NCBI GenBank assembly: GCA_009929375.1
Contig: SAAO01000005.1
Coordinates: 1 to 64,000, forward strand
DNA from: Bacteroidia bacterium
Lineage (GTDB): Bacteria > Bacteroidota > Bacteroidia > Bacteroidales > Paludibacteraceae
Direction of reading: 5' to 3'
Length of the DNA: 64,000 nucleotides
The position numbers and the translations under genes are program-made. Under the pieces are notes generated by a model. The model was not told the DNA's origin and did no database searches. It saw nothing but the letters and a program-made list of their open reading frames with translations. Positions 8,601-42,286 of this stretch are shown piece by piece. How positions within the stretch are numbered: position 1 is the stretch's first letter; every line of letters begins with the position of its first letter.

Positions 8601-9348
8601 GAGTGATTTCGGATACTTTTTCGGTATACACAATATTGCCCATCCGGGTTAATGTGTTTCCTTTGCCCGAAAGGTCGGTTACCACATCTGCTCTATCATT
8701 AAAATCCCAGTATCCCCAAAGCGAAGTTTCGGAGGTGTTGACGCCGCTGCTGAACTCATTTGCAATTTGCTCGGCAGTGCGTGCCGATGTGTAAAACGCC
8801 AAATCATTCATTTGTCCTTTAAAAGCTTCTTTGAATGCTCCACTCTGATAAAGTCCTCCAAAACGAAAACCATCGCTAACCGTGTTGTTATCCATTGGCG
8901 CTGTGCCGTTGGTGTAAACAGCTGCACTTTCAACTCCGTTGATGTAAAAACGCAGGGTATTGTTGTCCTTTACCAGTGCCACATGTTGCCATTTACCAAA
9001 ACTGAGTTGTGTGGTCGATCGGGCTTTTTTAAAGGAGCCATTCCATTGGCCATAAAACAGGTTGTCGTCGCCTTCGATGCGGAAAAAATTTCCTACGTTA
9101 CCATTGCTTGTGGTAGCCCACGCAGCTATGGTGCGTATGGTTCCCGAAGTGTTCAGTGCCGGAAAAATCCATCCTGAGATGGTAAAAGTGGCACCAAACT
9201 GTGGAATTGTTCCGGTTGGTTTAAGCGAAGAGTTTCCATCGAAAGAAACTGCATAATCTGTGCTGTTGGTTTTGCTTAAAGCTTTGGTCGGCCATGCAAA
9301 CAGCATTGTTGAAAGGCACAGAAATGCAAGAAAAGTGTGTTTTTTCAT
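5635..9348 (-). CDS. LamG-GH89 alpha-N-acetylglucosaminidase with T9SS tail
   Basis: The 1237-residue enzyme is predicted to remove terminal alpha-linked GlcNAc, the cap of some gastric mucin O-glycans and a residue of heparan sulfate. The order is signal peptide (1-24), LamG/concanavalin-like domain (about 30-240), GH89 N-terminal domain (about 355-440), catalytic barrel (about 450-790) and helical C-terminal domain (to about 1060). A type A T9SS sorting tail follows (from about 1160, with VQLFPNPAKDE). The two family glutamates fit Glu639 in DLFHEGG and Glu762 in APEAI, by analogy with human NAGLU Glu316 and Glu446. The T9SS tail predicts surface display. The fucosidase gene lies 77 bp upstream with no clear promoter between, so co-transcription is likely. 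Confidence 0.9.
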   Translation of the reverse strand: MKKHTFLAFLCLSTMLFAWPTKALSKTNSTDYAVSFDGNSSLKPTGTIPQFGATFTISGWIFPALNTSGTIRTIAAWATTSNGNVGNFFRIEGDDNLFYGQWNGSFKKARSTTQLSFGKWQHVALVKDNNTLRFYINGVESAAVYTNGTAPMDNNTVSDGFRFGGLYQSGAFKEAFKGQMNDLAFYTSARTAEQIANEFSSGVNTSETSLWGYWDFNDRADVVTDLSGKGNTLTRMGNIVYTEKVSEITPDGGNISTGHVKNNTAHAYISSNVPGKLYWAVYPSSATNIGIDQVKNGTNAVKYGVKDYKTHPYTDFWVINGLTPANTYTLYGVLEVAGTEQKLISTTFTTTNSIKDLSSQIEGVKALMQRLLPDRAAEFEFAAIDPVDDVLDVFELISVGNKIRVSGSSGTAMAAGVRYYLNNYCNASFSWNGDQNILPASLPVITNAVRKETTYRHRYALNYCTLNYTMSFWDWERWEREIDLMATQGVNLFLSGIGTEAVWQNVMQKYGYTFSEIQKFIPGPAYTAWWLMGNLEGEGGPVSQAYIDGRVTLQKKILARAKELGMEVVMQGFCGFAPTTIGSKITGINVHDQGEWVSGYKRPVVVSGPKAFELAASWYEESIKLFGAAKYYGGDLFHEGGQIPAGLDVTQFAADIQAEMLKANPEAVWVLQSWLHNPKAEVIAGLKKDQTLVIDLGNERDNGWLRDAPAAFTNIPWVYSVIHNFGGRMGIYARLQRIADNHFAMQTHPQKGNNWGIGIAPEAIIFNQVGYDLLWDLVWKSDKINVQDYVTNFAAYRYGKEFEHTTNAWKILSTTALNCPGNSWQDGASESVVNARPGLDIARASSWSTTNLYYDPKTILPAWTLMLKSAGEFSNKTTFRFDLVDITRQCLVNYAQVLQKEVTTAFRAKDKAAFASKSQLFLELILDIDSLLRTREECLVGTWIADARAMGTNISEKDLFEKNARALITTWDTKKDGSLHDYSHREWAGLTKNLYYERWKLFFSDLQGQLDGNTAKNYNYFSMLEFPWITKFSETHSTQPQGDEIEISAFLYEKYMPLILGTDKKSFSIPEKQEAGYIAGQLSVANTTNYSIQSQSVTDAFSIDNSGKITVNKAEQMLFAVHPVFKLRVKAGNSSTPEFVSYTDVTINLNAVSALRNSDKATDVQLFPNPAKDECFVQLPYDQEVNISVSDTMGKVYLSGCDSGKLLTIKTDTFPRGAYLVNVSNKNLDCHMKLLPE

Positions 9349-9425
9349 GATTGATTGTGTGTTTATTTCATATTGTCTTGATTAAGCCGTGAAGAACAAT
9401 AAAATCCAAATGATAAAACAGCCTG

Positions 9426-10943
9426 TTATTTACTTAAATACAATCCTGCTTCAATAATTTCAGGGGCAGCCCTGAAGCCTGTAAAGCGAATTCGTGCTTT
9501 GCTGAAGGTCGTTTTTTCGAATCGAAGAATGCGTTTGTATCCTACCGTTTTTCCTTCGGCCAGTTTTTCCCATTTTCCATTGTTGTAAACTTCGAGTACA
9601 AAATTCTCGATTCGTTGTCCGTTACGGATATTTTCCTGTAGCAGAAGGCGGTCGCAACTTACAGCTTTGCGGAAACTGATTTCAATGACAGGCTCCTTGT
9701 CGGTTGTGGCTGCTCTCCAGAAACTTAGTTTGTCAGCATCGGTGATATTGCGGTTTGCGCTGTATTTTCGTCCGTTGCTTTTGGCTTTTATTTTGGCACT
9801 TTTTAAAATATTGTTTGCAAAAGTATTGTCGATGCGCTTACGGAGTTCCAGTAAGTTTTTAATGTCATTATCGTGAATCAGCCCACGACGATCAGGAGGA
9901 ATATTCAGCAACAGAGTGGAGTTCATTCCTATGGAAGTGTAATAAATATCCTCCAGTTTATCCACGCTTTTTACCTTGTCGTCCTGACTTGCATGGTAAA
10001 ACCAGCCCGGACGAATGGAAGTGTCCACCTCGGATGGATACCAGATCATGGCTTCGGTGCCTTTGAGCAAGTGGCGACTTCCCAAATCGGCACCACGCGC
10101 ATCTTTGGGTACAAACATGTTTTCACCGGCATTTTGTTGCGAGTTTTCGGCAATAGTGCTGCGTGAGGCTGCGCCAACAGGCAATGCGCTCCATTCGGGA
10201 TCGCGACCGCGTCCGGCTTCGTTGCCCACCCAGCGTACATCGGGACCCATAATGGCAATGACTGCTTTGGGTTGCAGGCGGCGGATCAGAGTATAAAACG
10301 ATTCAAAATCGTATTGCTGCACTTTTCCGTTCGGACCTTCGCCATTGGCACCATCGAACCATACTTCGAACATTTCGCCGTAGTTGGTGAGCAATTCGGT
10401 AAGCTGGTCGCGGAAAATCTGATTGTAGGCCGGCGAATCGCCATAAGTAGGATGATTGCGATCCCATGGCGATAAATATATGCCCATTTTCAGTCCGTGA
10501 CGACGACAGGCATCGGCCACTTCGCGAACCAAATCGCCCTGACCGTTGCGCCATGGTGATTTTTGTACGGAATATGAAGTTGTTTTAGTTGGCCACAGAC
10601 AAAACCCATCGTGATGTTTCGCTGTCAGAATCATACCTTTCATGCCCGCAGCCTTAAAGGTTTTTACCCACTGTTCGGCATCGAGCGCTGTAGGGTTAAA
10701 CAGTTCGGGCGGATTGGTTCCGTCGCTCCATTCCTGTCCTGTAAAAGTGTTTATTCCGAAATGTATAAATCCGTAATACTCCATTTCCTGCCAATTCATT
10801 TGGCGTTCGGAGGGGCGTACAGCCAGTGCAGCTTTCAGAATTTCGTCGTCACCGGCTCCCGGTTTTACAGGTATGTAGTTTTGCGCCGGTAATATGAGGC
10901 AAAAAGCCAGGAGGCATGATAGTATGATTGATTTTTTATTCAT
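9426..10943 (-). CDS. GH29 alpha-L-fucosidase
   Basis: The 505-residue enzyme is predicted to release alpha-L-fucose from glycan ends. It has a signal peptide (1-20), the GH29 substrate-site segment AKHHDGFCLWPT (108-119) and a probable nucleophile Asp197 in EVWFDGANGEG. A small C-terminal beta-sandwich of F5/8 type C character (about 370-505) completes it. No T9SS tail is present, so it is probably periplasmic. It lies between the GH2 and GH89 genes on the same strand. Upstream is a nested hairpin element (11002-11112) rather than a recognisable promoter box. GH29 subfamily and linkage preference cannot be read from the sequence. Confidence 0.92.
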   Translation of the reverse strand: MNKKSIILSCLLAFCLILPAQNYIPVKPGAGDDEILKAALAVRPSERQMNWQEMEYYGFIHFGINTFTGQEWSDGTNPPELFNPTALDAEQWVKTFKAAGMKGMILTAKHHDGFCLWPTKTTSYSVQKSPWRNGQGDLVREVADACRRHGLKMGIYLSPWDRNHPTYGDSPAYNQIFRDQLTELLTNYGEMFEVWFDGANGEGPNGKVQQYDFESFYTLIRRLQPKAVIAIMGPDVRWVGNEAGRGRDPEWSALPVGAASRSTIAENSQQNAGENMFVPKDARGADLGSRHLLKGTEAMIWYPSEVDTSIRPGWFYHASQDDKVKSVDKLEDIYYTSIGMNSTLLLNIPPDRRGLIHDNDIKNLLELRKRIDNTFANNILKSAKIKAKSNGRKYSANRNITDADKLSFWRAATTDKEPVIEISFRKAVSCDRLLLQENIRNGQRIENFVLEVYNNGKWEKLAEGKTVGYKRILRFEKTTFSKARIRFTGFRAAPEIIEAGLYLSK

Positions 10944-11001
10944 ATACAGTATGATGATGTAAGTTTGTTGAAATATTTAATGATATGTTTCTAACACAAT
11001 A

Positions 11002-11112
11002 GAACACATAGAAATTATTTAAGAAAAAGACTTAGTTCGCATAGTAAAAGTATCTGACGATACTTTTATCGCTCAGAGATTATCCCGAATGTCGGGATAA
11101 TCCTATGTGTTC
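11002..11112. repeat. nested hairpin element between GH2 and GH29 genes
   Basis: Three perfect inverted repeats are nested. The outer GAACACATAG (11002-11011) pairs with 11103-11112. Inside are AAAAGTATC/GATACTTTT (11046-11054 with 11059-11067) and GATTATCCCGA/TCGGGATAATC (11078-11088 with 11092-11102). The sequence just beyond (to 11156) shares the 12-mer CTATGTGTTCTT and the 10-mer ACTATGTGGT, in the same order, with 32524-32581. This marks a dispersed repeat family. It may also terminate or attenuate the GH2 transcript. Confidence 0.65.
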
Positions 11113-11208
11113 TTAGTCTTTTCTGTTGTTTTCAAAACTACTGTGTACTATGTGGTGAAAACATATCAACAATAATTATCGATTATTTAAGCTTAATTAT
11201 CAGAAAAT

Positions 11209-14325
<3,117 letters not shown>

Positions 14326-14359
14326 TTAGTGTGATGTGTTGTGATTTTGTATTTGTCTA

Positions 14360-14389
14360 CAAAAATAATTTAAAAAATTGATTTTCAAA
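14360..14389 (-). promoter_or_regulatory. promoter of the GH2 gene
   Basis: Read on the minus strand, TTTG (complement of 14386-14389) is followed after 18 bp by TATTTTTG (complement of 14360-14367), which fits the Bacteroidota consensus. It lies 43 bp upstream of the GH2 start codon. Confidence 0.65.
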
Positions 14390-14455
14390 ATGAAATATAT
14401 TTATTAAATACCTGGTTGTGGAAATAATATTTATAAATATGACTTTTTATACGGC

Positions 14456-16762
14456 TTACTGCACAATCACTTCGTCCAATGCAAAGCGTGTTTGTGTATC
14501 GGGTCGTACGTGCCCGGCAGGGGTTACGCCCGGGTTTTTAATTTCGAGTTTAATAAAACGTGCGTTTTGTTTGCCAAAAAGATACTCTCTTGTATCTCTG
14601 TACATTCCAAACTGAAAACGTTCGTTCTCGCTGTAAGTCTGAGTGTGTATATGTCGGAAGTCTGTTCCGTTGTCGGATACCACGATTTTTATTTCAGTTG
14701 GCAGGTGCAATGTCATTCCTGCATTGATATTCCAGCTGATTTTCACACTGTTGAAAGTGTTTGTTTGTCCTATATCTATCACAAAGGCAGCGTCGCGGTC
14801 GTACACTTCCACCCATTCGCCATCGGTGCGTTTTTCACTACCGAGCAAGCCGTTGGTCAGCAATCCGGCATTTGCTTCTGTCGAAATTACTTTGGCGCCA
14901 ATGGCCTTGTGCGAAAGAAAATTTAGAGCTAAAATCTCGCCGAATGCTTGTTGGTTGATAAAGACTCTTGCTCTTACAGACGTTCCTTCGTTCACAAAAA
15001 ACGGTGAACGATATAGTTCAGAACTGATGATTGGTTCGCTCTTATCTGTTGTGTAGCGAATTTCGGCATCGGGACGGATATTTTCAAGTGTCAGACGGAC
15101 TTTATTGTCAGTCACTTCGGCTTTGTGAGCAATGTTGAACATTGATTTGGCGTAGTTGATGCCTGCCGATTTGTAGTCGGCGGTCATTTTATCAATCCTT
15201 TTTACAAAGCTTTCCCAGTTTTTATTTTCGGGAAGGCTCCAGGCCGATTCAGCAAAAGCCGACAAACGCGGAAAAATCAGATACTCAGCATCGCGACTAC
15301 TGTTTACAAATTCTGTCCACAGGCAGGCCTGCACACCGAGCATGTTTTTTGTCACACTTTCGGGATATTGCGTGTTTAGCGGTTCATATTGGTAAATGTC
15401 TTTCAGAGTGGTGTTACCGAAATAAGTGTAAGGTTCAAACCATTGTGGACCCTGATAGCGAAGCAGGTAGTATTTCTGAGCGGGACTTTTGATATATTTA
15501 AAGCCTTTTTTTCCGGCTTCTTCGGCTGCATTACCCATGCCACGCCAACCAAAAATGGTTGCTCCTTCGGGAATCTCGCTGTCCACAAGCTCATCCCAAC
15601 CCATTAGTTTTTTATTGTTTTTCTGCAGAAAAAGGTTGATTCTTTTGATAAAATAACTCTGAAGTTCTTCTTCGTTCGGAATATTATGATCTTTCATTCG
15701 TGCCTGACAACGGGGGCATTTTTCCCAGTTTGTTTTTGTGGCTTCATCGCCCCCGATGTGAATGTACTGTGAAGGAAAAAGCGCCATCACTTCGGTGATT
15801 ACATCTTCGAGAAATGTAAAAACACTGTCGTTGCCTGCACAATAAATATTGGCTGCATGAGCGCCTCCCATTCCGGGCAGAACGCCTATGTGATTTTTTA
15901 CCACAGGGCAGGTTAAATGCGGGTAAGCAGCCAGCGATGAATTGGTGTGTGCGGGCATTTCAATTTCGGGGATCACTTCGATATACCTTTCGGCTGCATA
16001 TTGCACAATTTCGCGGATATCGTTCTGTGTATAATAACCTCCTACTGTGGCAGGTTCGCCTGGTTCGGGATTGTGACGCATGGAGAAATTGTTGTGTCTG
16101 TCCACTTTCCATGCTCCTATGTCGGTGAGCAGGGGATATTTTTTTATTTCAATGCGCCATCCATTGTCGTCCACCAAATGCCAGTGAAAATAATTAATTT
16201 TATGATAAGCCAACTGATCGAGAAGTCGTTTTATATCTTCCACAGGCATAAAAAAACGCGATACATCAAGCATAAATCCGCGATAGTCAAAGCGCGGACT
16301 GTCGCTGATGGAAGCAGCTTTTACCGTCCATTTTGCGTTCGGCATAAGTGTTTTTCCATTGATTTCGGAAGGTAACATTTGACGAAGCGTTTGTATTCCG
16401 TGAAAGAATCCATGCGATGTGGACGCTTTCAGAATTATTTTTTTTGCTGTAATATCCAGTGAGTAAGCCTCTTTTTCGAGTTCTTTGTCGGTTTGCAGTA
16501 TTACTGCATTGCGTGAAGCTTTACCTGACAATCGAACGGAGTTTTCGAATCCGGCTGTTTTAGTAAAAAGGGAACTGAGTGAGCGTACAATGGCTTCCTG
16601 CTCTTTGTTCTCAACTATCCATTGCGTTTTCCGGTTGAATTCGAACTGTGCTTCGTGGTAAATTATTTCGCGCGGCTGTGGGATAAGTGCTTGCAGGGTT
16701 TGTGGTGTCAGTGCAGTTAATAAAACAACAATGCCTGTCACGATCAGAGATCTGAGGGTCAT
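14456..16762 (-). CDS. GH20 beta-N-acetylhexosaminidase
   Basis: The enzyme is predicted to release terminal beta-GlcNAc or beta-GalNAc by substrate-assisted catalysis. I chose the ATG at 16760-16762, giving 768 residues, because the signal peptide MTLRSLIVTG begins there; an upstream in-frame ATG would add 31 residues that are unlike a leader. The order is a GH20 N-terminal domain, a barrel with the catalytic pair Asp339-Glu340 in HIGGDEA, and a C-terminal F5/8 type C-like domain (about 620-768). No T9SS tail is seen, so a periplasmic location is likely. It sits between the T9SS small-protein gene and the GH2 gene, all on the minus strand. Confidence 0.92.
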   Translation of the reverse strand: MTLRSLIVTGIVVLLTALTPQTLQALIPQPREIIYHEAQFEFNRKTQWIVENKEQEAIVRSLSSLFTKTAGFENSVRLSGKASRNAVILQTDKELEKEAYSLDITAKKIILKASTSHGFFHGIQTLRQMLPSEINGKTLMPNAKWTVKAASISDSPRFDYRGFMLDVSRFFMPVEDIKRLLDQLAYHKINYFHWHLVDDNGWRIEIKKYPLLTDIGAWKVDRHNNFSMRHNPEPGEPATVGGYYTQNDIREIVQYAAERYIEVIPEIEMPAHTNSSLAAYPHLTCPVVKNHIGVLPGMGGAHAANIYCAGNDSVFTFLEDVITEVMALFPSQYIHIGGDEATKTNWEKCPRCQARMKDHNIPNEEELQSYFIKRINLFLQKNNKKLMGWDELVDSEIPEGATIFGWRGMGNAAEEAGKKGFKYIKSPAQKYYLLRYQGPQWFEPYTYFGNTTLKDIYQYEPLNTQYPESVTKNMLGVQACLWTEFVNSSRDAEYLIFPRLSAFAESAWSLPENKNWESFVKRIDKMTADYKSAGINYAKSMFNIAHKAEVTDNKVRLTLENIRPDAEIRYTTDKSEPIISSELYRSPFFVNEGTSVRARVFINQQAFGEILALNFLSHKAIGAKVISTEANAGLLTNGLLGSEKRTDGEWVEVYDRDAAFVIDIGQTNTFNSVKISWNINAGMTLHLPTEIKIVVSDNGTDFRHIHTQTYSENERFQFGMYRDTREYLFGKQNARFIKLEIKNPGVTPAGHVRPDTQTRFALDEVIVQ

Positions 16763-16872
16763 AATCTTTTTTGTTTGAATGATAAAAACTAATTGATATT
16801 CAGTGTGAAAAATAATGTGTTGTCTGAATCTATGCAGGAAAAATATACCAGACATTTACATTTTGTTGTAAA

Positions 16873-16929
16873 CTGACAGTACCAACAGGAATAGTTACGG
16901 TTTCTGTTGATACTGTCAGATTTTTTTTA
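16873..16929. terminator. strong hairpin between the T9SS small-protein and GH20 genes
   Basis: A 16-bp stem with one mismatch (16873-16888 with 16904-16919) is followed on the plus strand by a run of T. No plus-strand gene lies upstream. On the minus strand, the direction of transcription here, only a short TTTACAAC stretch follows. It may partly terminate the small-protein transcript or stabilise its 3' end, leaving lower read-through into GH20. Confidence 0.55.
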
Positions 16930-16963
16930 TTTATCGAAAAACGAATTGAATAAGTTGGTTTTT

Positions 16964-18136
16964 TTACAACACAATTTTCATACTCTCGTTATCGATTTTA
17001 AGAATGTACACACCGTTTGTGGTTTTCAGATTTAATTCGTTGTGAATGCTTTGAGCATCGAAAACTTTCTGTCCCGAAATACTGAATAGCTTCACGTTTT
17101 GTCCGGGGATTAAATTCCGAATAAATAAATTGCCATTTTGGAAACTGTATTTTACTGTATCAATGGTTTTCCTGTCAACTGAGGTGGTTGCACCCGAGAA
17201 AACAACATGCATACTGGCATCTTCATTCAGCAAAGGAGTTGTAAAGCTGAAAGTGCCGTCATTGTTGTCGGTTACGGTTACAGTATTGTCGTTGTAAGTG
17301 ACCGAAACCAGCGATGCACCTTCGGCCGGAGTGAATGTGAAGGTCTGCGTGTCCTGGTCGCGCACTGTTTCAGTGGCAGTACTCACAGTTCCGTTGCCGG
17401 CTTTTGTTACATTTATGATTCGTACAGCGGGTTCAGTTCTGCTTGTGAGCATAAGTTCAGGAGTTTCGAAATACGCAAACAATCCGGCAGTATTGGGAAT
17501 GCTCATTTTAAAGCGGAATGGTCTGTTGGCTGTCTGTTCGAAAGTAGCTGTATGCCATCCTTTGGTGGCGTAGGTTTGTGTGGTTCCCAATTGCCCGCCG
17601 CCCATATCGTACACAAGCATTTGTAAATTGAATGAGCCCGGATTGTAGATGCGCGATTTGAATGAGACATTATAATTCGTGTAGTTGTATGCCGATGGAA
17701 TATACCAGTTCAGGTTTACATATCCCAGAAACTTTCCGGCTTTGTCGTCGGCAACAGGGGCTGTATTTTGTGCAAAACGCAGCGTGTTCGGAGCAACGAG
17801 TGATGTATCGGCAATTGTAAATGCTTTGCGTACATTGGTTGGGTCGGTAATGTCACCGGCCTGAATTTGTCCGCCTGTGACTGCGAAAAAACCGTTGGTA
17901 AGATCCTCACCTGTACTGTTTGTAATAGCCGGATTTGGATTTGCCCCTCCTGCCAAAGGCATTACCATAGTGCGAAGGCTTGTAGTGGTCATTGTGGCAA
18001 AGTTAAGTGCAGAGGGTGTAATGTTCTTTTCCCATTTCGATGTGGTACTGTTGAATTGCCAGTTGCCGGCAAATGTGTGAGCGCTGCACAGTGCAAGGGC
18101 GATAGTGAAAACTGAAAAGAGTTTGTTTTTTTTCAT
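16964..18136 (-). CDS. T9SS-exported protein of unknown function, first gene of the minus-strand unit
   Basis: The 390-residue product has a signal peptide (1-23), a beta-rich body, a bacterial repeat-like domain (about 240-310, KAGNGTVSTATETV) and a type A T9SS sorting tail (NVKLFSISGQKVFDA then GVYILKIDNESMKIVL). No catalytic motif is visible. It is the first gene left of the divergent regulatory region at 18211-18393. The N-terminal half shares a local pattern (an ANP segment, then NGFF and GG) with the first gene on the other side, so the two may be related. A surface glycan-binding role is plausible but unproven. Confidence 0.7.
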   Translation of the reverse strand: MKKNKLFSVFTIALALCSAHTFAGNWQFNSTTSKWEKNITPSALNFATMTTTSLRTMVMPLAGGANPNPAITNSTGEDLTNGFFAVTGGQIQAGDITDPTNVRKAFTIADTSLVAPNTLRFAQNTAPVADDKAGKFLGYVNLNWYIPSAYNYTNYNVSFKSRIYNPGSFNLQMLVYDMGGGQLGTTQTYATKGWHTATFEQTANRPFRFKMSIPNTAGLFAYFETPELMLTSRTEPAVRIINVTKAGNGTVSTATETVRDQDTQTFTFTPAEGASLVSVTYNDNTVTVTDNNDGTFSFTTPLLNEDASMHVVFSGATTSVDRKTIDTVKYSFQNGNLFIRNLIPGQNVKLFSISGQKVFDAQSIHNELNLKTTNGVYILKIDNESMKIVL

Positions 18137-18210: not shown

Positions 18211-18218
18211 CAAAGAAA
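18211..18218 (-). promoter_or_regulatory. -7-like box of the minus-strand unit
   Basis: The minus strand reads TTTCTTTG, one base from the TAnnTTTG consensus. Exactly 20 bp separate it from the proximal operator half-site (18239-18251), the same distance as on the plus side. No TTTG -33 element was found, consistent with activator dependence. Confidence 0.5.
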
Positions 18219-18238
18219 AACAGAAATCAGTGCCGGCA

Positions 18239-18272
18239 TGTTCCGAAATGTATCATTGATGTTCGGAATTGT
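18239..18272 (-). promoter_or_regulatory. operator, two direct half-sites 21 bp apart (minus orientation)
   Basis: On the minus strand ACAATTCCGAACA (complement of 18260-18272) is followed by ACATTTCGGAACA (complement of 18239-18251). The start-to-start spacing is 21 bp, two helical turns. The motif matches the plus-oriented pair at 18332-18365. It is a candidate site for an AraC-type activator. Confidence 0.65.
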
Positions 18273-18331
18273 GCAAAAGTGCTTTTGAGCAATTTGCTGA
18301 AGGGATTAATAATGGTCAAACAAAAATCTGT

Positions 18332-18365
18332 ACAATATCGGACAAAATCAAAACAATATCGAACA
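18332..18365 (+). promoter_or_regulatory. operator, two direct half-sites 21 bp apart (plus orientation)
   Basis: ACAATATCGGACA (18332-18344) and ACAATATCGAACA (18353-18365) differ at one base and start 21 bp apart. The proximal half-site ends 20 bp before the -7 box at 18386, where a bound activator would cover the -33 position. Confidence 0.7.
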
Positions 18366-18385
18366 TGCGTCACAAAGGCTTGTTT

Positions 18386-18393
18386 TACATTTG
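18386..18393 (+). promoter_or_regulatory. -7 box of the plus-strand unit
   Basis: TACATTTG followed by CAGC fits TAnnTTTG. There is no TTTG at the expected -33 position, as often seen in activator-dependent promoters. It is 69 bp upstream of the chosen start codon at 18463. Confidence 0.6.
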
Positions 18394-18462: not shown

Positions 18463-19518
18463 ATGAAATCAAAACTTCTACTTTCTTTGCTTTCAGTGGC
18501 GATGTGTTCGGTAGCTTACGCACAAACCGACATTACTCCTTCCCGTTATGTTTTTTCTGATCAGCCTGTAGGTCAGTTTACAGTAAATGCTGTAAATGCC
18601 GGAGCTAATCCTGCTGCCGGTTGGGCAGTGCCTGTGGATAATTTCAATAACGGATTTTTTATGCTGGCCGGTGGACCTGCTGTTTTTACATCTTTAGAAG
18701 CTGCGCAACCTGCGGCAATTCAGCAGGGCATTAATATTGTAGATTTGGGTGGTGAAGTTGGAAAGGTACTGGTGATGCGTGGCAAAACTTCCACTTATAA
18801 TGTGGGGACTGCAATGGGCGATGGTTATGCGGGTGCATGGTTCAATATGAATTTCTACTTCGATAAAATTCTCACTCCGATACGTGAAACAGTGCGTGTG
18901 CGTTTGGTTTTTTCTATTCACGAAAATGTAATCAGTGCAACAGGTTCGGCTTTGGGTAAATTCTATACTTCGAACTGGCAAAACAATGTATCACCTGCTT
19001 TGGCCGATGTACCAACTACTTTCCCGAGCGATTTTTTTCAGGCAACCGACGAACTTGGCGATCCACTTGCAAATGATGATGGCGAAGCTTACTACGATCC
19101 CACAAAATGGATGGTTTACGAATTTGATACTCAGATACCCGAAGAATCAGGAAATCCAAATCGTTTGAAAATTGAATTCTTAGGCACTGCCGGAAATATG
19201 ACTATCCTTTTTAAAGAAATAAAATTCATCAAGAATCCGGTGGGAGATCCTGCTGTTCGTCAGTTAGTGCGCTATACTCCGGGTACCACATCGGTAAAAG
19301 ATATACTCGCTGCAAGTCGCAATCTTCAGGTGGCTGTAGTTGGTAATAATGTGCGTTTGCTCGATGTTGCTGCCGGAAGTCGCGTGGAAGTATTTTCGGT
19401 GAGCGGACAACTTCAGAATTCGTTTATTACGACTACCGACAACGAGAGCTTCGAAATGCCAAAAGGTTTTTATATTCTGAAAGCAGGAGCAAAAACTGCC
19501 AAACTGAATATCAGATAA
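18463..19518 (+). CDS. T9SS-exported protein of unknown function, first gene of the plus-strand unit
   Basis: I chose the ATG at 18463 (351 residues) because the signal peptide MKSKLLLSLLSVAMCSVAYA starts there; the longer reading frame adds 16 residues that run into the promoter leader. The body is beta-rich without a recognised fold. The C-terminus is a T9SS sorting tail (VEVFSVSGQLQNSF then GFYILKAGAKTAKLNIR). The gene leads the unit that continues to GH18, the lipoprotein, SusC and SusD, so it is probably made at high level. It may be a surface glycan-binding protein. Possible relationship to the 390-residue protein across the divergent region is noted there. Confidence 0.7.
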   Translation: MKSKLLLSLLSVAMCSVAYAQTDITPSRYVFSDQPVGQFTVNAVNAGANPAAGWAVPVDNFNNGFFMLAGGPAVFTSLEAAQPAAIQQGINIVDLGGEVGKVLVMRGKTSTYNVGTAMGDGYAGAWFNMNFYFDKILTPIRETVRVRLVFSIHENVISATGSALGKFYTSNWQNNVSPALADVPTTFPSDFFQATDELGDPLANDDGEAYYDPTKWMVYEFDTQIPEESGNPNRLKIEFLGTAGNMTILFKEIKFIKNPVGDPAVRQLVRYTPGTTSVKDILAASRNLQVAVVGNNVRLLDVAAGSRVEVFSVSGQLQNSFITTTDNESFEMPKGFYILKAGAKTAKLNIR

Positions 19519-19739
19519 TTTTTATTTTAGATTTGAAGTGTGTTTATAACAAAAAACAGAAGATCAGCGCGGAATTAGTTTTTTAAGGTTTTCTCTATGT
19601 GTTTTAAAGTAAATATTGCCTGACTTCTGTTTTTATTTCACAACATCAAATGTTTTCCGTATAAATACTTACAACAGAGCCCGATGGTGATAAAGTTATA
19701 GCCGGTTTTGTTCGACCTTTAAGAATCAATTATTTACAT

Positions 19740-22301
19740 ATGAAGAAATATTTTTCTCTGCTGCTCTTTGCCGCACTCTTTTTTGGCCATGCAAATGCTC
19801 AGGTCGATAATTACAGTCTCCGTATGGATACAAACGGATCGCTGGATGCCGGTTATGTGAGCGAAATAAACGAATCAGACAGATTTACAGTGCAGTTTTG
19901 GATGCATCCGGATGTGTGGACTCCAAATGCTGCTGTTTTTACACGTGGGAATGCCGACCAGCTTTTCGAACTCAGACTAGGAAGTGAAAGCGGGCGACTG
20001 AAATTGTTTGCAGGCGCACAGTCGGTTGACATTGTGTCGGTCAATATTGCTGCGGCTAAATGGGCGCACATAAGCATTGTGTCACAGCCGGGCAGTCTTA
20101 AAGTGTATGTAAATAATACACTTACCATCAACACAAATACCGGAGTCATTATTCCCTCGTCGGGCAGTAATCTTTTCCTGGGCAATAATTTCAAAGGGCG
20201 TATCGACGAATTCCGTATCTGGTCCGAAGCGCTTGCTACTAATGACCTGCTTTGGCGGAATACCCTTAATAAGTATCACCCACAGTGGAACAATCTGGTT
20301 TTGTACTACAAATTCGATCAGAATCTTTGTCCCAATGTGGTGGATTATACTTTCAAACATCACGGAACTTTTTCGGCTGCAGGCGCTGTGCGCGAAAAAG
20401 TAACCGATAATGCTGCATTCAAATACCGTATTCAGGCTGCTTACACCGATTTTTCGCGCTTTGCCGATCGTGGTGTCGACCGTGAAAAGTATCTGCTTTC
20501 AAACGATATCATTATGCTTGGAGTGGAGTCGAATTCCGATGGTACTATTACAATGCCTTTTCCGTACAACGAAGGTAAAATAACCAACGCGGTGCAAATG
20601 CAGGCTTTCGAAGGTCGCACGGGTGTACTTGCTTTCAATGGTGCTGGTGCTGGCATGGAAGTGGGAGCAAAGGCGCTTATCCCTACTGCAAAATATTCGC
20701 TGCATACATGGCTTTACATCGACGAGTGGACCGAAGGTGCTTATCTTTTTCAGAAAGAAGCTTCTGTGAATCAGGGATTTTCAGTCCGTTTGGGAAATCC
20801 GGCCACTTATGAACTTATCCTGCGTCTTAACGGACAGGAATTTAAACGTAACATTCCCACATCATTGATCACAAAACCTGTGGGTTCATGGTGGAATCTG
20901 GGTGTGGTGGCTTTCTCGCTCGAAATGGGCGCCACCAAAACTTTTATGTTCACTTTCGATGGGAAAGGATATTTCCCGCTCAGTTCAGGAGTTCCTGCTA
21001 CAGTTCCTGCCACGCTTTTGCCACAGGGAGTTAATCAGACGGCTGCCGTCATCGGCAAGGATTTTAAAGGGAAACTCGACGAAACTGTGATTTGGCATGC
21101 CGACCTTTCTGAAGCTCAGATAAAGGGCTACATGTCGGAATTACCAATGCCCGGATTCGGGAAAATTGTGGAAGCGCAAACAGTGCTTTACCGCATGAAT
21201 TCGTTCTGGAACTATGATAATGCCGAAAATCCCGGTTACGATCTGTATTCGTACAAGCATTTTATGAACATTGTGCGCAGTGCTTTCGATGGATATCGTG
21301 GTTATAAAATCCGTATGAGTGTAAAGGGACACGATGGCTGGGAATCGACTATGGCTAACGCAACTAAACGCAAAACAATGGCCGAAGGTATTGTGGCTGC
21401 TGCTGCCGATTTCGATGGTATCGACCTCGATTTCGAATGGTGTTACGACGGAACATGTTTTAATAATTATGGATTGCTGTTGGAAGAAATTGGCAAAATA
21501 ATGCCTGCTGAGAAAATATTTACTGTCTCGCCACATTATGTCTCGTACAGCTTCCCCACAAAATATATGACTCATGTGGATTATTTCACCTTCCAGATTT
21601 ACGGTCCGAGTGCCAATGTCTTCCGCTGGAATACATATGTGGATGCATACAACCGATTTATTGCTCAGGGTTATCCCAAAGATAAAATTGTAATGTCGTA
21701 CGCCACTACCACATCGCGTGCTTACGAGGATGCTGCAGGCAATGTACAAACTGCTGCTGCGCCTATAGGTGTGCGCAATGGTCTGCTCGATGGAACTTAC
21801 ACGCCCGACATGGATGTGGTAATGGATAGCAATGGAAAATATCGTTTTATTACCGGCGTAAACCAAACCCGCAACCGCAGTGAGTACATTCACGAAAAAG
21901 ACCTCGCAGGAATTATGTATTGGGACATGGGAAATGATGTGGCTACATCGCACCCGTACAGTATTCCAAAGGCATCGAACTATGCGCTGGCCAGCAATGT
22001 GGATACTGTTATTACGCAGGTGAATATGAATCCCAGTGCTATACATCCGGTTTCGGCACAACGTGCTGTAATAAAGATATATCCCAATCCGGCTACAAAC
22101 TTTATCCGCCTTTCGTTACCGGCAAATGATATGATTGACACGGTGAAAATTTTCAGTGCCAATGGTCAGTTGATGCAAACTGTGACCGGCGAAAAAACAC
22201 TGACAAATATGGATGTGAAAGCTTTGCCCGGAGGTTTTTACAGTCTGCACGCAAACACGCGAACAGGCAAGCTTTTTTCAGCCACTTTTTTGAAACAATA
22301 G
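19740..22301 (+). CDS. LamG-LamG-GH18 protein with T9SS tail, probable endo-acting glycosidase
   Basis: The 853-residue product has a signal peptide (1-20), a LamG-like domain (about 25-165), a second LamG-like domain (about 290-460) and a GH18 barrel (about 470-750). The GH18 signature DGIDLDFEW at 559-567 carries the catalytic acid Glu566. A T9SS sorting tail follows, beginning near IYPNPATNF. GH18 proteins in Sus-type loci are often endo-beta-N-acetylglucosaminidases that release N-glycans, though chitinase-like members exist. The two lectin-like domains and T9SS tail predict a surface enzyme that makes the first cut or holds glycoprotein. It lies 221 bp after the leading T9SS gene and 29 bp before the lipoprotein gene. 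Confidence 0.85.
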   Translation: MKKYFSLLLFAALFFGHANAQVDNYSLRMDTNGSLDAGYVSEINESDRFTVQFWMHPDVWTPNAAVFTRGNADQLFELRLGSESGRLKLFAGAQSVDIVSVNIAAAKWAHISIVSQPGSLKVYVNNTLTINTNTGVIIPSSGSNLFLGNNFKGRIDEFRIWSEALATNDLLWRNTLNKYHPQWNNLVLYYKFDQNLCPNVVDYTFKHHGTFSAAGAVREKVTDNAAFKYRIQAAYTDFSRFADRGVDREKYLLSNDIIMLGVESNSDGTITMPFPYNEGKITNAVQMQAFEGRTGVLAFNGAGAGMEVGAKALIPTAKYSLHTWLYIDEWTEGAYLFQKEASVNQGFSVRLGNPATYELILRLNGQEFKRNIPTSLITKPVGSWWNLGVVAFSLEMGATKTFMFTFDGKGYFPLSSGVPATVPATLLPQGVNQTAAVIGKDFKGKLDETVIWHADLSEAQIKGYMSELPMPGFGKIVEAQTVLYRMNSFWNYDNAENPGYDLYSYKHFMNIVRSAFDGYRGYKIRMSVKGHDGWESTMANATKRKTMAEGIVAAAADFDGIDLDFEWCYDGTCFNNYGLLLEEIGKIMPAEKIFTVSPHYVSYSFPTKYMTHVDYFTFQIYGPSANVFRWNTYVDAYNRFIAQGYPKDKIVMSYATTTSRAYEDAAGNVQTAAAPIGVRNGLLDGTYTPDMDVVMDSNGKYRFITGVNQTRNRSEYIHEKDLAGIMYWDMGNDVATSHPYSIPKASNYALASNVDTVITQVNMNPSAIHPVSAQRAVIKIYPNPATNFIRLSLPANDMIDTVKIFSANGQLMQTVTGEKTLTNMDVKALPGGFYSLHANTRTGKLFSATFLKQ

Positions 22302-22330
22302 GCAGTTTTTAGAATTATAATCGTTTAAAA

Positions 22331-22924
22331 ATGAATAAGATTAAATTTTACAGCTTTTTGATTGCAGCCATTCTCATGTTTGGAGCCTGCGAGGAAAAAG
22401 CCCTGAATCCCGGAGATTTCACTCTCCCTACCGAACTCGAAGTAGTTCAGATTTACGATACCCTGGGTAATGAATATCCGGTGCAGGTACTCCGAAGCAT
22501 CGATACCACTTATCTTTATCCGCGCATTAAATCTGATACACTGAAAGATGAAAATGGCATTCCGGTGCGCGATAGCAATAATAAATTGCAAATTACACGC
22601 GACACCACTTACACGCCCGGCACTAAAACTGCACGATTTGTAGAGTTGGAGCCTGTGTTGTTGGCAGCGCCGCGTAACGAATTGCACATTACACTGACAT
22701 CGAATGCGCGCTGGCTGGCTCCAACGCCCGACTTTAAAGGAAAAATTGCCTGGTATCTGACACAAAATGTAAACGGAGGTGGAGATGCGACCATTAAGGT
22801 GAAAATTCTGGCCGGACTGGCCACAAAGCGTCGTCCGGTATTGGCTCAGCAATTTATTTATAGCCGCGACAGCCTTGTGATGTATAAAATTGTTTTCGAT
22901 CAGAAAGCACAAAACGAACAATAA
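22331..22924 (+). CDS. lipoprotein with a BACON-like C-terminal domain
   Basis: The 197-residue protein has a lipobox ending in Cys20 (FGAC), followed by EEK. Acidic residues at this place resemble the Bacteroidota surface-export signal. The C-terminal part (about 115-190) has the spacing of a BACON-type domain: a TSNARW start, a middle strand with GGG, then an RRPVLAQQFIYSRDS segment and a final FDQ. Such lipoproteins hold or present glycans. It lies directly before susC (18 bp gap), whereas SusE/F-type proteins usually follow SusD. No enzyme motif is present. Function is inferred from domain shape and location. Confidence 0.65.
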   Translation: MNKIKFYSFLIAAILMFGACEEKALNPGDFTLPTELEVVQIYDTLGNEYPVQVLRSIDTTYLYPRIKSDTLKDENGIPVRDSNNKLQITRDTTYTPGTKTARFVELEPVLLAAPRNELHITLTSNARWLAPTPDFKGKIAWYLTQNVNGGGDATIKVKILAGLATKRRPVLAQQFIYSRDSLVMYKIVFDQKAQNEQ

Positions 22925-22942
22925 ATCAAATACTTTTCAGTG

Positions 22943-25900
22943 ATGAAACGAATCATATTTTTAGTCGCCGCAATGACGGTTTTGCTGCAGGCTGTGATGG
23001 CCCAGTCGGTGAAGGTGAGCGGCAAAGTGCTCGATAATAATAATGAAACCATAATCGGTGGAACTGTTATTGAAAAAGGAACTACCAATGGAACAACTAC
23101 TGATTTCGATGGTAACTTCAGTCTCAGTGTAGGTTCACGCAATGCTGTGCTGGTGGTTTCGTACGTGGGAATGAAAACGCAGGAAATCAGCGTTGGTGCC
23201 AAAAACAGCGGACTTGTAATCGTACTGCAACCGGACACGAAAGTGCTCGACGAGGTTGTGGTAGTAGGTTTTGGTACACAGAAAAAAATAAATGCAACCG
23301 GCGCTGTAAAATCTATTGATGCAAAAGCGCTTGAATCGCGACCGATTTCGAATGCCGTGCAGGGCTTACAGGGTGTAATTGCCGGTCTGAACATTACAAA
23401 CGATAATGGTGGCGGACTCGGACAATCGATGAGCATCAATATTCGTGGTTTGGGAACAATTGGCGAAGGTTCTAATTCCTCTCCGCTTGTATTGATCGAT
23501 GGTATCGAAGGCGATCTTTCGACCATTAACCCAAACGATATTGAAAATATTTCGGTGTTGAAGGATGCGGCAGCAGCTTCTATTTACGGTTCGCGTGCTC
23601 CTTTCGGGGTTATTTTGGTCACTACCAAATCGGGTGCTGAGCAGAAAACTGCTGTGACCTATACCGGAAATGTGCGCGTTTCAAATCCTGTGGCAGTGCC
23701 CCGTGCGGTAGATTCGTACACTTATGCCCTGATGGTAAACGATGCATACAGCAACTCGGGTGGAAATCCGCCTTTCGGTGCCGGACAGCTTGGCAAAATT
23801 ATGAGTTATCAGCGTGGTGAATTGCCTTTTGGTATCGAAAAAGCCGAGGGTGTTAACGACTGGGCGTGGAATCAGCGCAGTTTCGGAAATACAAACTGGT
23901 ACAACGAACATTTGAAATCAGCCACTTACTCGCAGGAGCATAATATTAGTTTACGTGGAGGCAATAAGGCCACAAGTTATTTTGTGTCTGCCAATTATTT
24001 GGGACAGAATGGACTATTTACCTATGCTGACGAAAAATTCAGCCGTCTTTCGGTAAATGGAAAACTGAATATGAAAATTACCGATCGCCTTATGTTTAAC
24101 TGGAGCTCGCGTCTTACCGATACTTCGAACGATAAACCTTCGGCGCTTAACGATTTGTTTTATCACAATCTGGGTCGTCGCTCACCATTGATGCCTGTGT
24201 ATATGCCTAATGGTGAATATAACCGCGAATCGCTTATTCCTTCATTGCTGAATGGTGGACGTTATATTGTAAAAAATCAGTTATTTTACAACCAGGCTCA
24301 GTTTACATTCGAAGCAATGAAAAACTGGAAATTTTATTTTGACCTTGGAAGCCGTATCGAAAAACCGAGCGAAAGCCGTCAGTTCAACCGCCTGAGTTAT
24401 ACCTTGCCCGATGGAACGCAAAACTATTTTGCAGTGCTCGAAGGTGTGGCCGATAAAAGCGTGGTAAACGAAGTAAACGGAACTATTCTTCGTCAGCCTG
24501 CTGCCGGAACTAATTACTACGAGCGTGCTTTTGGTCATGTAAATTATATGAATACAAACTTCCGTACCGATTATGAGTTGAAACTTAACAACCATTATTT
24601 CAAAGTGCTGGCTGGTATGCAGAGTGAGTATTATTTTACCGAAAAAATCCGTGTAGGTTCTGACAATATTACGCTGGACAGTAAGCCGTTTCTTCCTTCA
24701 GGAGCCGGAACAAATCCGCGTATGTCCGAGAAAAAAGGAGAATGGGCAAACCTCGGTATTTTCGGTCGTGTGAACTATGCGTATGCCGATCGTTATATGC
24801 TTGAACTGAATTTGCGTGCCGATGCAGCTTCGCGTTTTCCGGCCAATCAGCGCTGGGCTACTTTTCCCTCGGTTTCGGCAGGCTGGAATCTCGGACAGGA
24901 AGAATTTTGGGCCGGTTTGTACGAAAAAGGTTTCGAAATGCTGAAATTCAGAGCTTCGTACGGTGTTTTGGGAAATCAGAATACCAGCAGCTTTTATCCT
25001 TATTTCCAGTATATGAGTTCGGGAATGGGCGGTATTGTAATTGGTAATCAGGAAGCTACCGTGCTACCTGGCCCGCAACCTTTTGCTACTTCGCTCACAT
25101 GGGAAAAAATTGAAAACTCTGGTGTAGGTCTTGATCTTGGTTTCTTTTCGAACCGTTTGAGTGCAGCATTCGATCTTTATCAGCGTGTGACGCTCGACAT
25201 GGTGGGGCCGGCCAAACAGCTTCCGGCTGTGTATGGCGCGAATCCTCCAAAAACCAATAATGCTGAACTTCGTACACGTGGCTGGGAAATGGAAATAAGC
25301 TGGCGCGACCGCGTGGGCAAGGATTTTAGCTATTCGGCTACAGCCACACTCAGCGATTATCAGAGCGAAGTCACAAAATACGATACACCCGACGGCGCAC
25401 TGAACGGATATTTCCCCGGTAAGAAGCTTGGTGATATATGGGGTTATCAGGTAGTGGGAGTGGCCAAAAGTGATCAGGAAATGAACAACTGGTTGAGCAC
25501 CACTTCGCAATCGAACCTTGGTAAAAACTGGGGTGGTGGCGACTTGATGTATCGCGACATTGACGAAAACGGTAGTGTGAATGCCGGAGGTAATACCATT
25601 TACGATAGTGGCGACCTTTCGGTAATCGGAAACGGAACGCCCCGATATGCTTTTGGTCTGAATCTGGGCGCTGCGTGGAAATTTGTTGATTTTTCGATGT
25701 TCTTTCAGGGAATTGGTAAACGTGATGTGTTTTTCAATAACAGTGCTACTTTCTTTGGTTTTGCTGGTGAATGGCAGCGCTCACTTTTCTACGACCATCT
25801 CGATTATTTCCGCTATGCAGGCGATCCGCTGGGAGCAAACCTCGATCCTTACTACGGTCGTTTGCGTACCGATTATAACAATATACAGGTTTCGGATCGC

Positions 25901-26149
25901 TTTATTCAGAATGCTGCTTATGTGCGTTTGAAAAATCTTCAGATTGGATTTACACTACCTAAAACATCTGCACTTTCGAAACATGTTCAGAAGGCACGAT
26001 TGTATTTCTCGGGCGAAAACCTGTTCACATTTACAAACCTGCGCATCTACGATCCCGAAGCTATTGGCAGCGGTATCAGCGAATATGGTCCAGGAAAAAC
26101 ATATCCAATGTACAGGGTATTTTCGGCAGGACTCGATATTACACTTTAA
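22943..26149 (+). CDS. susC-like: SusC/RagA-family TonB-dependent outer-membrane transporter
   Basis: The protein imports oligosaccharides across the outer membrane, powered by TonB, in complex with the SusD lipoprotein encoded next. I chose the ATG at 22943 (1068 residues); a GTG codon immediately before it is in frame but unlikely. The order is signal peptide (1-20), a carboxypeptidase-regulatory-like domain (about 22-95), the TonB-box region with EVVVVGFGTQKK, a plug domain (about 110-215) and a long 22-stranded-type barrel ending in a terminal aromatic/hydrophobic strand. No STN domain is present, so there is no sign of anti-sigma signalling. The substrate is expected to be a mucin-type glycan, inferred from the surrounding enzymes. 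Confidence 0.95.
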   Translation: MKRIIFLVAAMTVLLQAVMAQSVKVSGKVLDNNNETIIGGTVIEKGTTNGTTTDFDGNFSLSVGSRNAVLVVSYVGMKTQEISVGAKNSGLVIVLQPDTKVLDEVVVVGFGTQKKINATGAVKSIDAKALESRPISNAVQGLQGVIAGLNITNDNGGGLGQSMSINIRGLGTIGEGSNSSPLVLIDGIEGDLSTINPNDIENISVLKDAAAASIYGSRAPFGVILVTTKSGAEQKTAVTYTGNVRVSNPVAVPRAVDSYTYALMVNDAYSNSGGNPPFGAGQLGKIMSYQRGELPFGIEKAEGVNDWAWNQRSFGNTNWYNEHLKSATYSQEHNISLRGGNKATSYFVSANYLGQNGLFTYADEKFSRLSVNGKLNMKITDRLMFNWSSRLTDTSNDKPSALNDLFYHNLGRRSPLMPVYMPNGEYNRESLIPSLLNGGRYIVKNQLFYNQAQFTFEAMKNWKFYFDLGSRIEKPSESRQFNRLSYTLPDGTQNYFAVLEGVADKSVVNEVNGTILRQPAAGTNYYERAFGHVNYMNTNFRTDYELKLNNHYFKVLAGMQSEYYFTEKIRVGSDNITLDSKPFLPSGAGTNPRMSEKKGEWANLGIFGRVNYAYADRYMLELNLRADAASRFPANQRWATFPSVSAGWNLGQEEFWAGLYEKGFEMLKFRASYGVLGNQNTSSFYPYFQYMSSGMGGIVIGNQEATVLPGPQPFATSLTWEKIENSGVGLDLGFFSNRLSAAFDLYQRVTLDMVGPAKQLPAVYGANPPKTNNAELRTRGWEMEISWRDRVGKDFSYSATATLSDYQSEVTKYDTPDGALNGYFPGKKLGDIWGYQVVGVAKSDQEMNNWLSTTSQSNLGKNWGGGDLMYRDIDENGSVNAGGNTIYDSGDLSVIGNGTPRYAFGLNLGAAWKFVDFSMFFQGIGKRDVFFNNSATFFGFAGEWQRSLFYDHLDYFRYAGDPLGANLDPYYGRLRTDYNNIQVSDRFIQNAAYVRLKNLQIGFTLPKTSALSKHVQKARLYFSGENLFTFTNLRIYDPEAIGSGISEYGPGKTYPMYRVFSAGLDITL

Positions 26150-26183
26150 TTACTAAAATTGAGAACTTTACAGAATTACTGAA

Positions 26184-28085
26184 ATGAAGAAATTATTTTA
26201 TATACTAACCGCATTACTTTCAATGTCTTTGGTTTCGTGCGAGGACTTTTTGCAGCGCGAACCGCTCGACTTTGGTAACGATCAGGCTTTTCTGAGAAAT
26301 GTGGACGATATGCGCAATTATACAAACGGATATTATTCGTTGTTTCCTTCGATGCGCTCAGGTTTTTGGGGTGGTGTTTATGCCGACGACAACAACAGCG
26401 ATAATCAGGCAGGGCCATCGGCTAATCAGCTTTTTTATCGTGGCGATAAATATACGCCGCTTGTAAAAGATTCGCACTGGAAATTTGATCACATACGCAA
26501 TCTGAATTATTTTATCAACCGAATGAAGACTGATGTGCCTGCCGGAAAAGTGAGTGGCTCTCGGGAACTCATTAATCATTATTTAGGCGAAGCGTATTTT
26601 TTCAAGGCTTATGAATATTTCCGTCTGCTTTCGAATCTGGGCGATGTACCCATTGTCGAAGATGTGCTGAGTGAAGATTATGATGGACTTATTGCTGCAA
26701 GCAAACGTATGCCCCGCAATGAAGTGGCCCGCTATATTCTGGGTCTGCTCGATCAGTCGAAGCAACTATTGATGGAAAAAGCTCCTGAAAGCGGTCGCCT
26801 CACGAAAGATGCAGCATTGCTAATGAAAGCCCGTGTCGCACTTTTCGAAGCTACATGGGAAAAATATCATCAGGGGACTACTTTTGCGCCCGGAAATCCT
26901 AAATGGGTTGGTGCTGCTTCTCATCCGAATTTTGCTTTTGCAGGTGGAAGCATTCAGTCGGAATATAATTATTTCTTCGAACAGGCCATTGCAGCAGCCG
27001 ACAGCGTGGCTTCGAAACGTACACTTTTTGCTGATTATGCATCGCTGTTCAACGACACAAAAGGCACAGTGATGGCTTCGCCGGAAGTGATTCTGGCACG
27101 CTATTATTTACAAGGTGTAAATGCACATTCAGCCACTCATTATTTGCAACGTACTGGTGCTGGGACTGGTCTGACACGTGCTATGGTGGAAACCTTCCTG
27201 ACAAAATCGGGTTTACCTGTGTATGCCGATAATACTTATCAGGGCGATTCGGTCATGTATCTGATGCTTCAAAACCGCGATATACGCCTTACTTCTTCGG
27301 TAAAGCCGGGAGGTTTGGTAGTAAACGGCACTGATACCATTGTAAATTACAAACCGCTGATTTATTCTTCAGGAAATCAGGGAACACCAACCGGATACGA
27401 ACTTAAAAAATGGATAAGTTATGAAGCCGGTCAGGATGCTACGCCTACCAGCGGAACTTCTGCAACGCCGGTTTTCAGAGTGGCCGAGGCGTATCTTATT
27501 TATCTTGAAGCATATTACGAACGATACGGACAACTGGGCGGAAATTGTGATACCTACTGGAAAGCTTTGCGTACCCGTGCAGGTGTAAGCACCGATTATC
27601 AGGCTACTATTGCTGCTACCGACCTGAACCTCGAAAATGATCTGGCTTCCAAATCGCGTGGAACTTTTGTGGATGCCACACTTTACAATATTCGTCGCGA
27701 ACGTCGTTGTGAGTTTGTGGCCGAAGGTATGCGACTTCTGGATTTGAAGCGCTGGCGTTCGCTCGATCATATGATTAATTATCAGGTGGAAGGTATTAAT
27801 CTCTGGGCTGATATTTACCGTTTATATACAGCTGATCAGATAAAAGTCGGACAGACAGTGTCGTCATCTTCGCTAAGTACTTATCTCCGTCCTTATCAGA
27901 TTGTATCGACATCTATCGTGTATGATGGTTATACTTTCCCCAAACCTCATTATCTGGAGCCTGTTCCGGTGAGCGAAATAATAATGACTTCGACCAACGG
28001 ACAGGATAATTCGCCGATTTATCAAAATCCGGGCTGGCCTGCCAAAATCAGTGGCCCTGCCGATTATAACTTCGATTGCGATTAA
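26184..28085 (+). CDS. susD-like: SusD/RagB-family surface glycan-binding lipoprotein
   Basis: The 633-residue lipoprotein has a lipobox ending at Cys19 (SLVSC) followed by Glu-Asp. It begins with the usual SusD opening, CEDFLQREPLDF, followed by TPR-like helices. The C-terminal RagB/SusD segment includes RRERRCEFVAEGMRLLDLKRW (split here by context, at about 514-534). It forms the lid over the SusC barrel and delivers glycan. The gene starts 34 bp after susC and ends the plus-strand unit; the hairpin at 28398-28449 terminates it. Assignment is firm, specificity is not. Confidence 0.94.
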   Translation: MKKLFYILTALLSMSLVSCEDFLQREPLDFGNDQAFLRNVDDMRNYTNGYYSLFPSMRSGFWGGVYADDNNSDNQAGPSANQLFYRGDKYTPLVKDSHWKFDHIRNLNYFINRMKTDVPAGKVSGSRELINHYLGEAYFFKAYEYFRLLSNLGDVPIVEDVLSEDYDGLIAASKRMPRNEVARYILGLLDQSKQLLMEKAPESGRLTKDAALLMKARVALFEATWEKYHQGTTFAPGNPKWVGAASHPNFAFAGGSIQSEYNYFFEQAIAAADSVASKRTLFADYASLFNDTKGTVMASPEVILARYYLQGVNAHSATHYLQRTGAGTGLTRAMVETFLTKSGLPVYADNTYQGDSVMYLMLQNRDIRLTSSVKPGGLVVNGTDTIVNYKPLIYSSGNQGTPTGYELKKWISYEAGQDATPTSGTSATPVFRVAEAYLIYLEAYYERYGQLGGNCDTYWKALRTRAGVSTDYQATIAATDLNLENDLASKSRGTFVDATLYNIRRERRCEFVAEGMRLLDLKRWRSLDHMINYQVEGINLWADIYRLYTADQIKVGQTVSSSSLSTYLRPYQIVSTSIVYDGYTFPKPHYLEPVPVSEIIMTSTNGQDNSPIYQNPGWPAKISGPADYNFDCD

Positions 28086-28447: not shown

Positions 28448-28449
28448 TT
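28398..28449 (+). terminator. terminator of the susCD operon
   Basis: A 12-bp perfect stem, AAAATCCGTTTT (28398-28409) with 28433-28444, is followed by a run of T up to 28449. The T run reaches the stop codon of the converging regulator gene. Confidence 0.85.
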
Positions 28450-42283: not shown

Positions 42284-42286
42284 TTT

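Follow-up and report, generated by a model that had tools for sequence, protein, structure and literature searches.

Mirror-image promoters with 21-bp direct repeats in a Paludibacteraceae glycan-degrading locus and their predicted control by a hybrid two-component regulator

The analyzed window, a stretch of 64,000 nt, contains a glycan-degrading gene cluster with two divergent halves, each presumed to be an operon. The intergenic region between them carries two sets of repeats and -7 boxes, and a gene for a hybrid two-component regulator (HTCS) lies beyond the plus half. The features are given below, together with the state of the intergenic elements in two related genomes, G148 and G136.

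5635 to 18136, minus strand: minus half, presumed operon; protein without a Pfam match (16964–18136), GH20, GH2, alpha-L-fucosidase, NAGLU
18211 to 18218, minus strand: minus-side -7 box, TTTCTTTG, unchanged in G148 and reading TAAATTTG in G136
18239 to 18251, minus strand: proximal half-site of the minus promoter, ACATTTCGGAACA, exact match; 1 mismatch in G148 and in G136
18260 to 18272, minus strand: distal half-site of the minus promoter, ACAATTCCGAACA, exact match; 1 mismatch in G148, 4 (degenerate) in G136
18332 to 18344, plus strand: distal half-site of the plus promoter, ACAATATCGGACA, exact match; 0 mismatches in G136, 1 in G148
18353 to 18365, plus strand: proximal half-site of the plus promoter, ACAATATCGAACA, exact match; 1 mismatch in G148, 2 in G136
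18386 to 18393, plus strand: plus-side -7 box, TACATTTG, unchanged in G148 and in G136
18463 to 28085, plus strand: plus half, presumed operon; protein without a Pfam match (18463–19518), LamG+GH18 protein, small protein without a match, SusC-like, SusD-like
28448 to 32389, minus strand: HTCS; Pfam matches to a Reg_prop sensor, Y_Y_Y, HisKA, HATPase, receiver, and AraC-type HTH

The Pfam matches place sensor, kinase, receiver, and AraC-type HTH of the HTCS in one chain, and its gene adjoins the susC/susD pair. The AraC-type output domain that a preliminary description of this DNA had ascribed to the regulator was recovered as a Pfam HTH_18 match at residues 1230–1308. The motifs SHELRTP, SDVMMP, and SHIP are located at residues 812, 1108, and 1131, respectively. 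The DNA-binding domain matched 18 distinct PDB sequences; the leading ones are from an HTCS protein (12aw) and from a response regulator, followed by SoxS and AraC. The available part of PMC11253607 links an S/CHIP-DK motif, which includes SHIP, with phosphorylation-controlled DNA binding. In the HTCS, the D and K of this motif may lie in NADEKF and FYNKVK. The enzymes of the locus suggest a host-type glycan.

Two further features were observed to the right of the HTCS gene. A fused sulfatase and BNR-repeat ORF is located at 32769–35381, and its sulfatase part is 67–71% identical to minus-half proteins of G136 and G148. This ORF is without an operator, though its relatives sit in the minus half in G136 and G148. 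At 40328–42949, beside a sulfatase/GH123 cluster, a sensor kinase with TPRs (HisKA_3) is encoded together with a response regulator of the LuxR type; this pair is a candidate second control system for the right-hand part.

The 13-bp motif ACAWTWYSGRACA occurs in four exact copies, which are its sole exact matches in the 64-kb window and form two mirror-image pairs, one per divergent promoter. On the plus and the minus side alike, the two copies of a pair are spaced 21 bp start to start, and the end of the proximal copy lies 20 bp before the -7 box. The plus box is TACATTTG, and the minus box, TTTCTTTG, has one mismatch to TAnnTTTG. The -33 slot is occupied by AACA on both sides, with the AACA ending 20 bp before the box, and neither TTG nor TTTG is present at this slot in the plus or the minus promoter. 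A -33 TTTG and a -7 TAnnTTTG are the consensus given in the available part of PMC7366714. Coordinates, strands, both spacings, the missing -33 TTTG, and the single mismatch of the minus box had all been reported in the preliminary description, and every one of them was reproduced. With a proximal half-site at the -33 slot and no -33 element of its own, each promoter has the layout expected of a class II-type, activator-dependent promoter. The 13-mer carries ACA at each end, 10 bp apart, a distance that would suit an AraC-type domain with its two HTH units. No ACAWTWYSGRACA-type operator was found before the HTCS gene itself.

When up to 3 mismatches were allowed, the pair pattern matched only the two intergenic pairs in the own genome (3,868,148 bases, 122 contigs), and its reversed control gave 0 matches. 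Matrix scores for the two pairs were 37.8 and 33.7, compared with 16.9 for the next place in the window and a best score of 16.6 over 20 Markov resamples; as the matrix was built from 13 copies, the window's four among them, these values gauge uniqueness and are not an independent proof. Because the motif was derived from the sites themselves, independent support has to come from conservation. Two general scans were uninformative: a sigma-70 scan, for a promoter type not used by these bacteria, yielded 47 matches versus 37.3 in shuffles, and a terminator scan yielded 20 versus 21.5.

A search with the plus-side protein in 200 family genomes (own included) led to matches at E<=0.001 in 35 of them. 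Among the matches listed, only those in G148 (67%) and G136 (64%) were full-length besides the own one, and the remaining listed matches were confined to the part after residue 225. G148 and G136 were then scanned with the single motif, allowing up to 2 mismatches and imposing no spacing. Both pairs were present in G148, each at 21 bp; in G136, the plus pair was found, again spaced 21 bp, along with a single minus copy. The 20-bp distance to the box is kept in every promoter of the three orthologous loci, and the plus box reads TACATTTG in all three. The preliminary description had named loss of the repeats and of their 21-bp and 20-bp spacings in relatives as a refutation, and this outcome did not occur, as both are kept in G148 and G136. 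Two points weigh on the other side: the minus -7 box is off consensus in the window and in G148, and the distal minus copy has 4 mismatches in G136. An alignment of seven promoters by their distal copies showed 15 invariant columns among the 34 of the elements versus 2 among the 128 outside (a T 5 bp and a G 2 bp ahead of the distal copy), a comparison that registration on the motif biases toward the elements. The invariant core includes the 3′-end ACA of both half-sites and the TTTG of the box. The minus half of G148 contains a second GH18-type protein directly after the first gene (L113:2344-4659), which shares 33% identity with the GH18 protein on the plus side of the window's locus.

A composite pattern of two sites, N20, and TANNTTTG, with up to 3 mismatches, was run on 358 family genomes, own included. 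It yielded 6 matches in 3 of the 358 genomes and 0 with the reversed control; the loosened positions of this pattern had been picked after G148 had been seen. The HTCS was searched at E<=1e-200 in 48 genus genomes, and five were found: the own one and those of G136, G148, G160, and G122. Identity to the window's HTCS was 48.7% for G136 and 52.4% for G148, versus 35–36% for G160 and G122. The three genomes with a composite match are the same three that have close HTCS orthologues in this search, and neither G160 nor G122 had a composite match. The G136 orthologue is 58.7% identical over receiver and HTH, whereas that of G148 ends at a contig end, at residue 1168, before the HTH domain. A Pfam Reg_prop search of the 48 genus genomes gave no match, and none for the controls either, the E-value limit being too strict for a 24-position model.

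The co-occurrence bears on the question of which regulator would use the repeats. They could be operators of another AraC-type protein or of the LuxR-type response regulator at 42287–42949: the window contains a second sensor/regulator pair, and the genome has 7 further HTCS-type matches at E<=1e-70. However, the composite is limited, among 358 family genomes, to the three for which the search of 48 genus genomes gave a close HTCS orthologue, and the HTCS lies inside the same cluster in the window and in G136. LuxR-type sites are usually inverted, whereas the repeats found here are tandem. We therefore regard another regulator as improbable.

One of the six composite matches, G136:C34, came unexpectedly; it is on another contig than the main locus of that genome and precedes an orthologue of the window's first minus gene. 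The product of this ORF (L127:2430-4925) is 57.6% identical to the window's first minus-half protein over residues 3–314. The ORF is longer, with 831 aa versus 390, and the similarity stops at residue 314 of the window protein. It has its own operator and -7 box, while the minus half of the main locus in G136 starts with a sulfatase, followed by GH20 and a fucosidase. The position of the operator before the moved gene indicates that operator and gene stayed together despite a changed neighbourhood.

As expected for operators of an HTCS-controlled PUL, a direct repeat of about 21 bp lies upstream of the operons of the locus, and the site is conserved with its genes in related genomes. We consider it highly likely that the HTCS (28448–32389) binds each pair as a tandem AraC-type dimer, with the proximal half-site in the -33 slot, and activates both operons. 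The intergenic region would then consist of two mirror-image, activator-dependent promoters under one regulator. The HTCS is envisaged to sense a periplasmic glycan fragment, and phosphorylation would free its AraC-type output domain. Two output domains would bind head to tail on one DNA face per 21-bp direct repeat, and the two HTH units of one domain could read the ACA ends in neighbouring major grooves. The proximal half-site would take the -33 slot, and the bound regulator would recruit RNA polymerase instead, in a class II-like activation. The two back-to-back promoters probably switch on both halves of the cluster together. The HTCS as the binder and the joint control of the halves are suggested by the co-occurrence with an HTCS orthologue and by the operator beside the relocated gene, and on these sequence-based grounds the earlier reading of the repeats as HTCS operators with joint control gains support. 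The sequence itself shows the repeats, their spacing and conservation, the co-occurrence with the regulator, and the operator beside the relocated gene, whereas binding, activation, ligand, and joint induction are predicted.

A different role for the bound HTCS appears quite unlikely, namely, that it mainly represses, or that the two operators form one looped complex that couples the promoters. A half-site over the -33 slot is a possible seat for a repressor as well, and one repressing HTCS is mentioned in the available part of PMC11253607. However, no -33 element is left for a polymerase acting unaided, and the SHIP motif of the HTCS is consensus, whereas the repressing HTCS of that report departs from it. 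The mirror arrangement invites the idea of looping, but the distal copies are separated by 59, 106, and 51 bp in the respective species, and in G136 the C34 operator has no partner. A looped, jointly phased operator pair was thus judged unlikely, and the promoters appear to be independent of each other. Chance resemblance or a duplicated stretch without function has a negligible probability: the motif was taken from the sites themselves and 21-bp-lag repeats are above chance in control promoters too, but the pattern is unique in the genome, its elements are conserved while the flanks diverged, and a relocated copy exists in G136.

The fixed distance to the -7 box was also analyzed at HTCS loci in general. 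The genus set comprised 311 boxes in 60 other HTCS neighbourhoods, with the three orthologous loci left out, and the control set comprised 225 boxes in 40 regions spread over the genus genomes, 2 of which were dropped. Boxes were counted only outside ORFs and if an ORF on the same strand started within 400 bp, and the distance d in bp was taken from the end of an ACA to the -7 box. In the genus set, ACA ended at d=20 in 20 cases, at d=30 in 20, at d=41 in 21, and at d=51 in 7, and at other distances the mean was 5.56 and the maximum 16. The respective control values were 1, 2, 5, and 2. ACA at d=20 paired 21 bp apart was found at 10 HTCS boxes and at 0 control boxes. Receiver+HTH sequences for clustering were obtained from 92 loci, and at 50% identity 5, 4, and 9 HTCS clusters stand behind the boxes with d=20, 30, and 41, and 3 behind the 10 paired boxes, so that related loci inflate the ACA counts. 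Among 4480 trinucleotide-distance pairs, ACA at d=20 ranked first for HTCS versus control, with an uncorrected P=1.4e-4 that alone would not survive correction. A recurrent promoter type with the same 21-bp/20-bp spacing and half-sites ending in CACA was observed at HTCS loci (L140, L148, L163, L172, L180, L183, L186); its distal half-sites often read TTRCACA or TACACA, and its proximal ones mostly TCCACA.

Outside the genus, 44 loci were analyzed, consisting of 20 loci (48 boxes in 17 of them) and 24 loci (61 boxes in 19), the latter chosen by title as Bacteroidota and including some matches that stop short of the HTH domain. A rule for every HTCS promoter, with ACA ending at d=20 and also repeated at a lag of 21, had been fixed beforehand and was rejected, as ACA at d=20 was found at 1 of 109 boxes, with 0 paired. 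ACA at d=30, also fixed beforehand, was found at 10 of the 109 boxes (P=6.7e-6, 7 HTCS clusters; 2 of 48 and 8 of 61 in the two sets, respectively), and at other distances the mean was 1.59 and the maximum 6. ACA ended at d=51, which was not among the preset distances, at 6 of 109 boxes, and at d=41 at 1. Within the genus, d=51 showed no enrichment (7 of 311 boxes, against a mean of 5.56 at other distances), whereas d=41 did (21 of 311). ACA pairs at lag 21 outside the genus numbered three at d=30 and one at d=9, with none at other distances from 8 to 39. Thus, d=30 alone is common to both sets. HTCS operators across Bacteroidota could share a single register set by the -7 box, in which the ACA that starts a half-site ends 30 bp before the box and the distal copy lies 21 bp further up. 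A bound dimer would then be held at a fixed place in lieu of a -33 element. As only d=30 is shared, we put this forward tentatively, as a possibility that is rather less than probable.

The spacing of 21 bp is not a hallmark in itself. The proposal that HTCS promoters can be recognized by a 21-bp repeat was dropped: at least 9 of 13 positions were identical at lag 21 in 25 of 311 HTCS boxes versus 14 of 225 control boxes, and repeats with at least 2 shared C/G were found at 23 of 311 versus 12 of 225. The 21-bp periodicity alone is not HTCS-specific. Regions that lack an HTCS also showed a mild excess of such repeats ahead of their -7 boxes, and phased A-tracts or other AraC-type regulators might be behind it. 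TTG peaked at 20 bp in the control boxes (14, mean 6.0; 11 at 19 and 11 at 35), and in the HTCS-locus boxes it was found 16 times at 19, 15 times at 20, and 15 times at 12 (mean 8.4). This signal is weak, but in both sets TTG is most frequent 19–20 bp before the boxes, which places the -33 slot at the end of the proximal half-site.

Motifs of Bacteroides HTCSs were predicted by Ravcheev et al. in 2013 (PMC3878776). According to the available part of that paper, all were direct repeats with an average distance of 21 bp, motifs were obtained for 16 of 36 HTCSs, and 20 of 36 in B. thetaiotaomicron were left without one. The preliminary description had suggested that the motif may be undescribed, which does not hold for its kind, HTCS direct repeats averaging 21 bp. 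The operator itself appears to be a new member of a kind of switch that had already been predicted. The words "transcription start" and "TAnnTTTG" are absent from the available text of PMC3878776, the available parts of PMC12125979, PMC4942465, and PMC11501099 contain nothing on the position of HTCS repeats, and a fixed distance from HTCS repeat to -7 box was not found in the titles and abstracts of the open-licence literature searched or in the text consulted of the papers cited here. The register anchored on the -7 box is thus possibly new.

The locus offers a concrete and cheaply testable candidate operator for the HTCS of a glycan locus. If the register were general, HTCS target promoters could be predicted from sequence without orthologues, with the mirror-image locus as the clearest case. 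HTCS binding would then be tied to the unusual promoter of Bacteroidota, which would help to read the regulons of HTCSs without a known motif.

At enterobacterial class II promoters of the AraC/SoxS type, direct half-sites are about 21 bp apart, the proximal one is at the -35/-33 slot, and the DNA-binding domain has two HTHs. The promoters described here are similar in half-site spacing, proximal slot, and two-HTH domain, the relation in fold being based on the PDB matches. In contrast, the regulator here is a membrane-bound hybrid kinase, the promoter is of the Bacteroidota -7 TAnnTTTG type, and binding is predicted. With the HTCS operators of PMC3878776, as far as the available text goes, the locus shares direct repeats of about 21 bp upstream of operons, an HTCS gene together with susC/susD, and several operons per regulator. 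The operator sequences are apparently not given in that text. Unlike those operators, and in ways that the available text does not mention, the two operators found here are mirror images placed back to back, each at a fixed distance of 20 bp from its -7 box.
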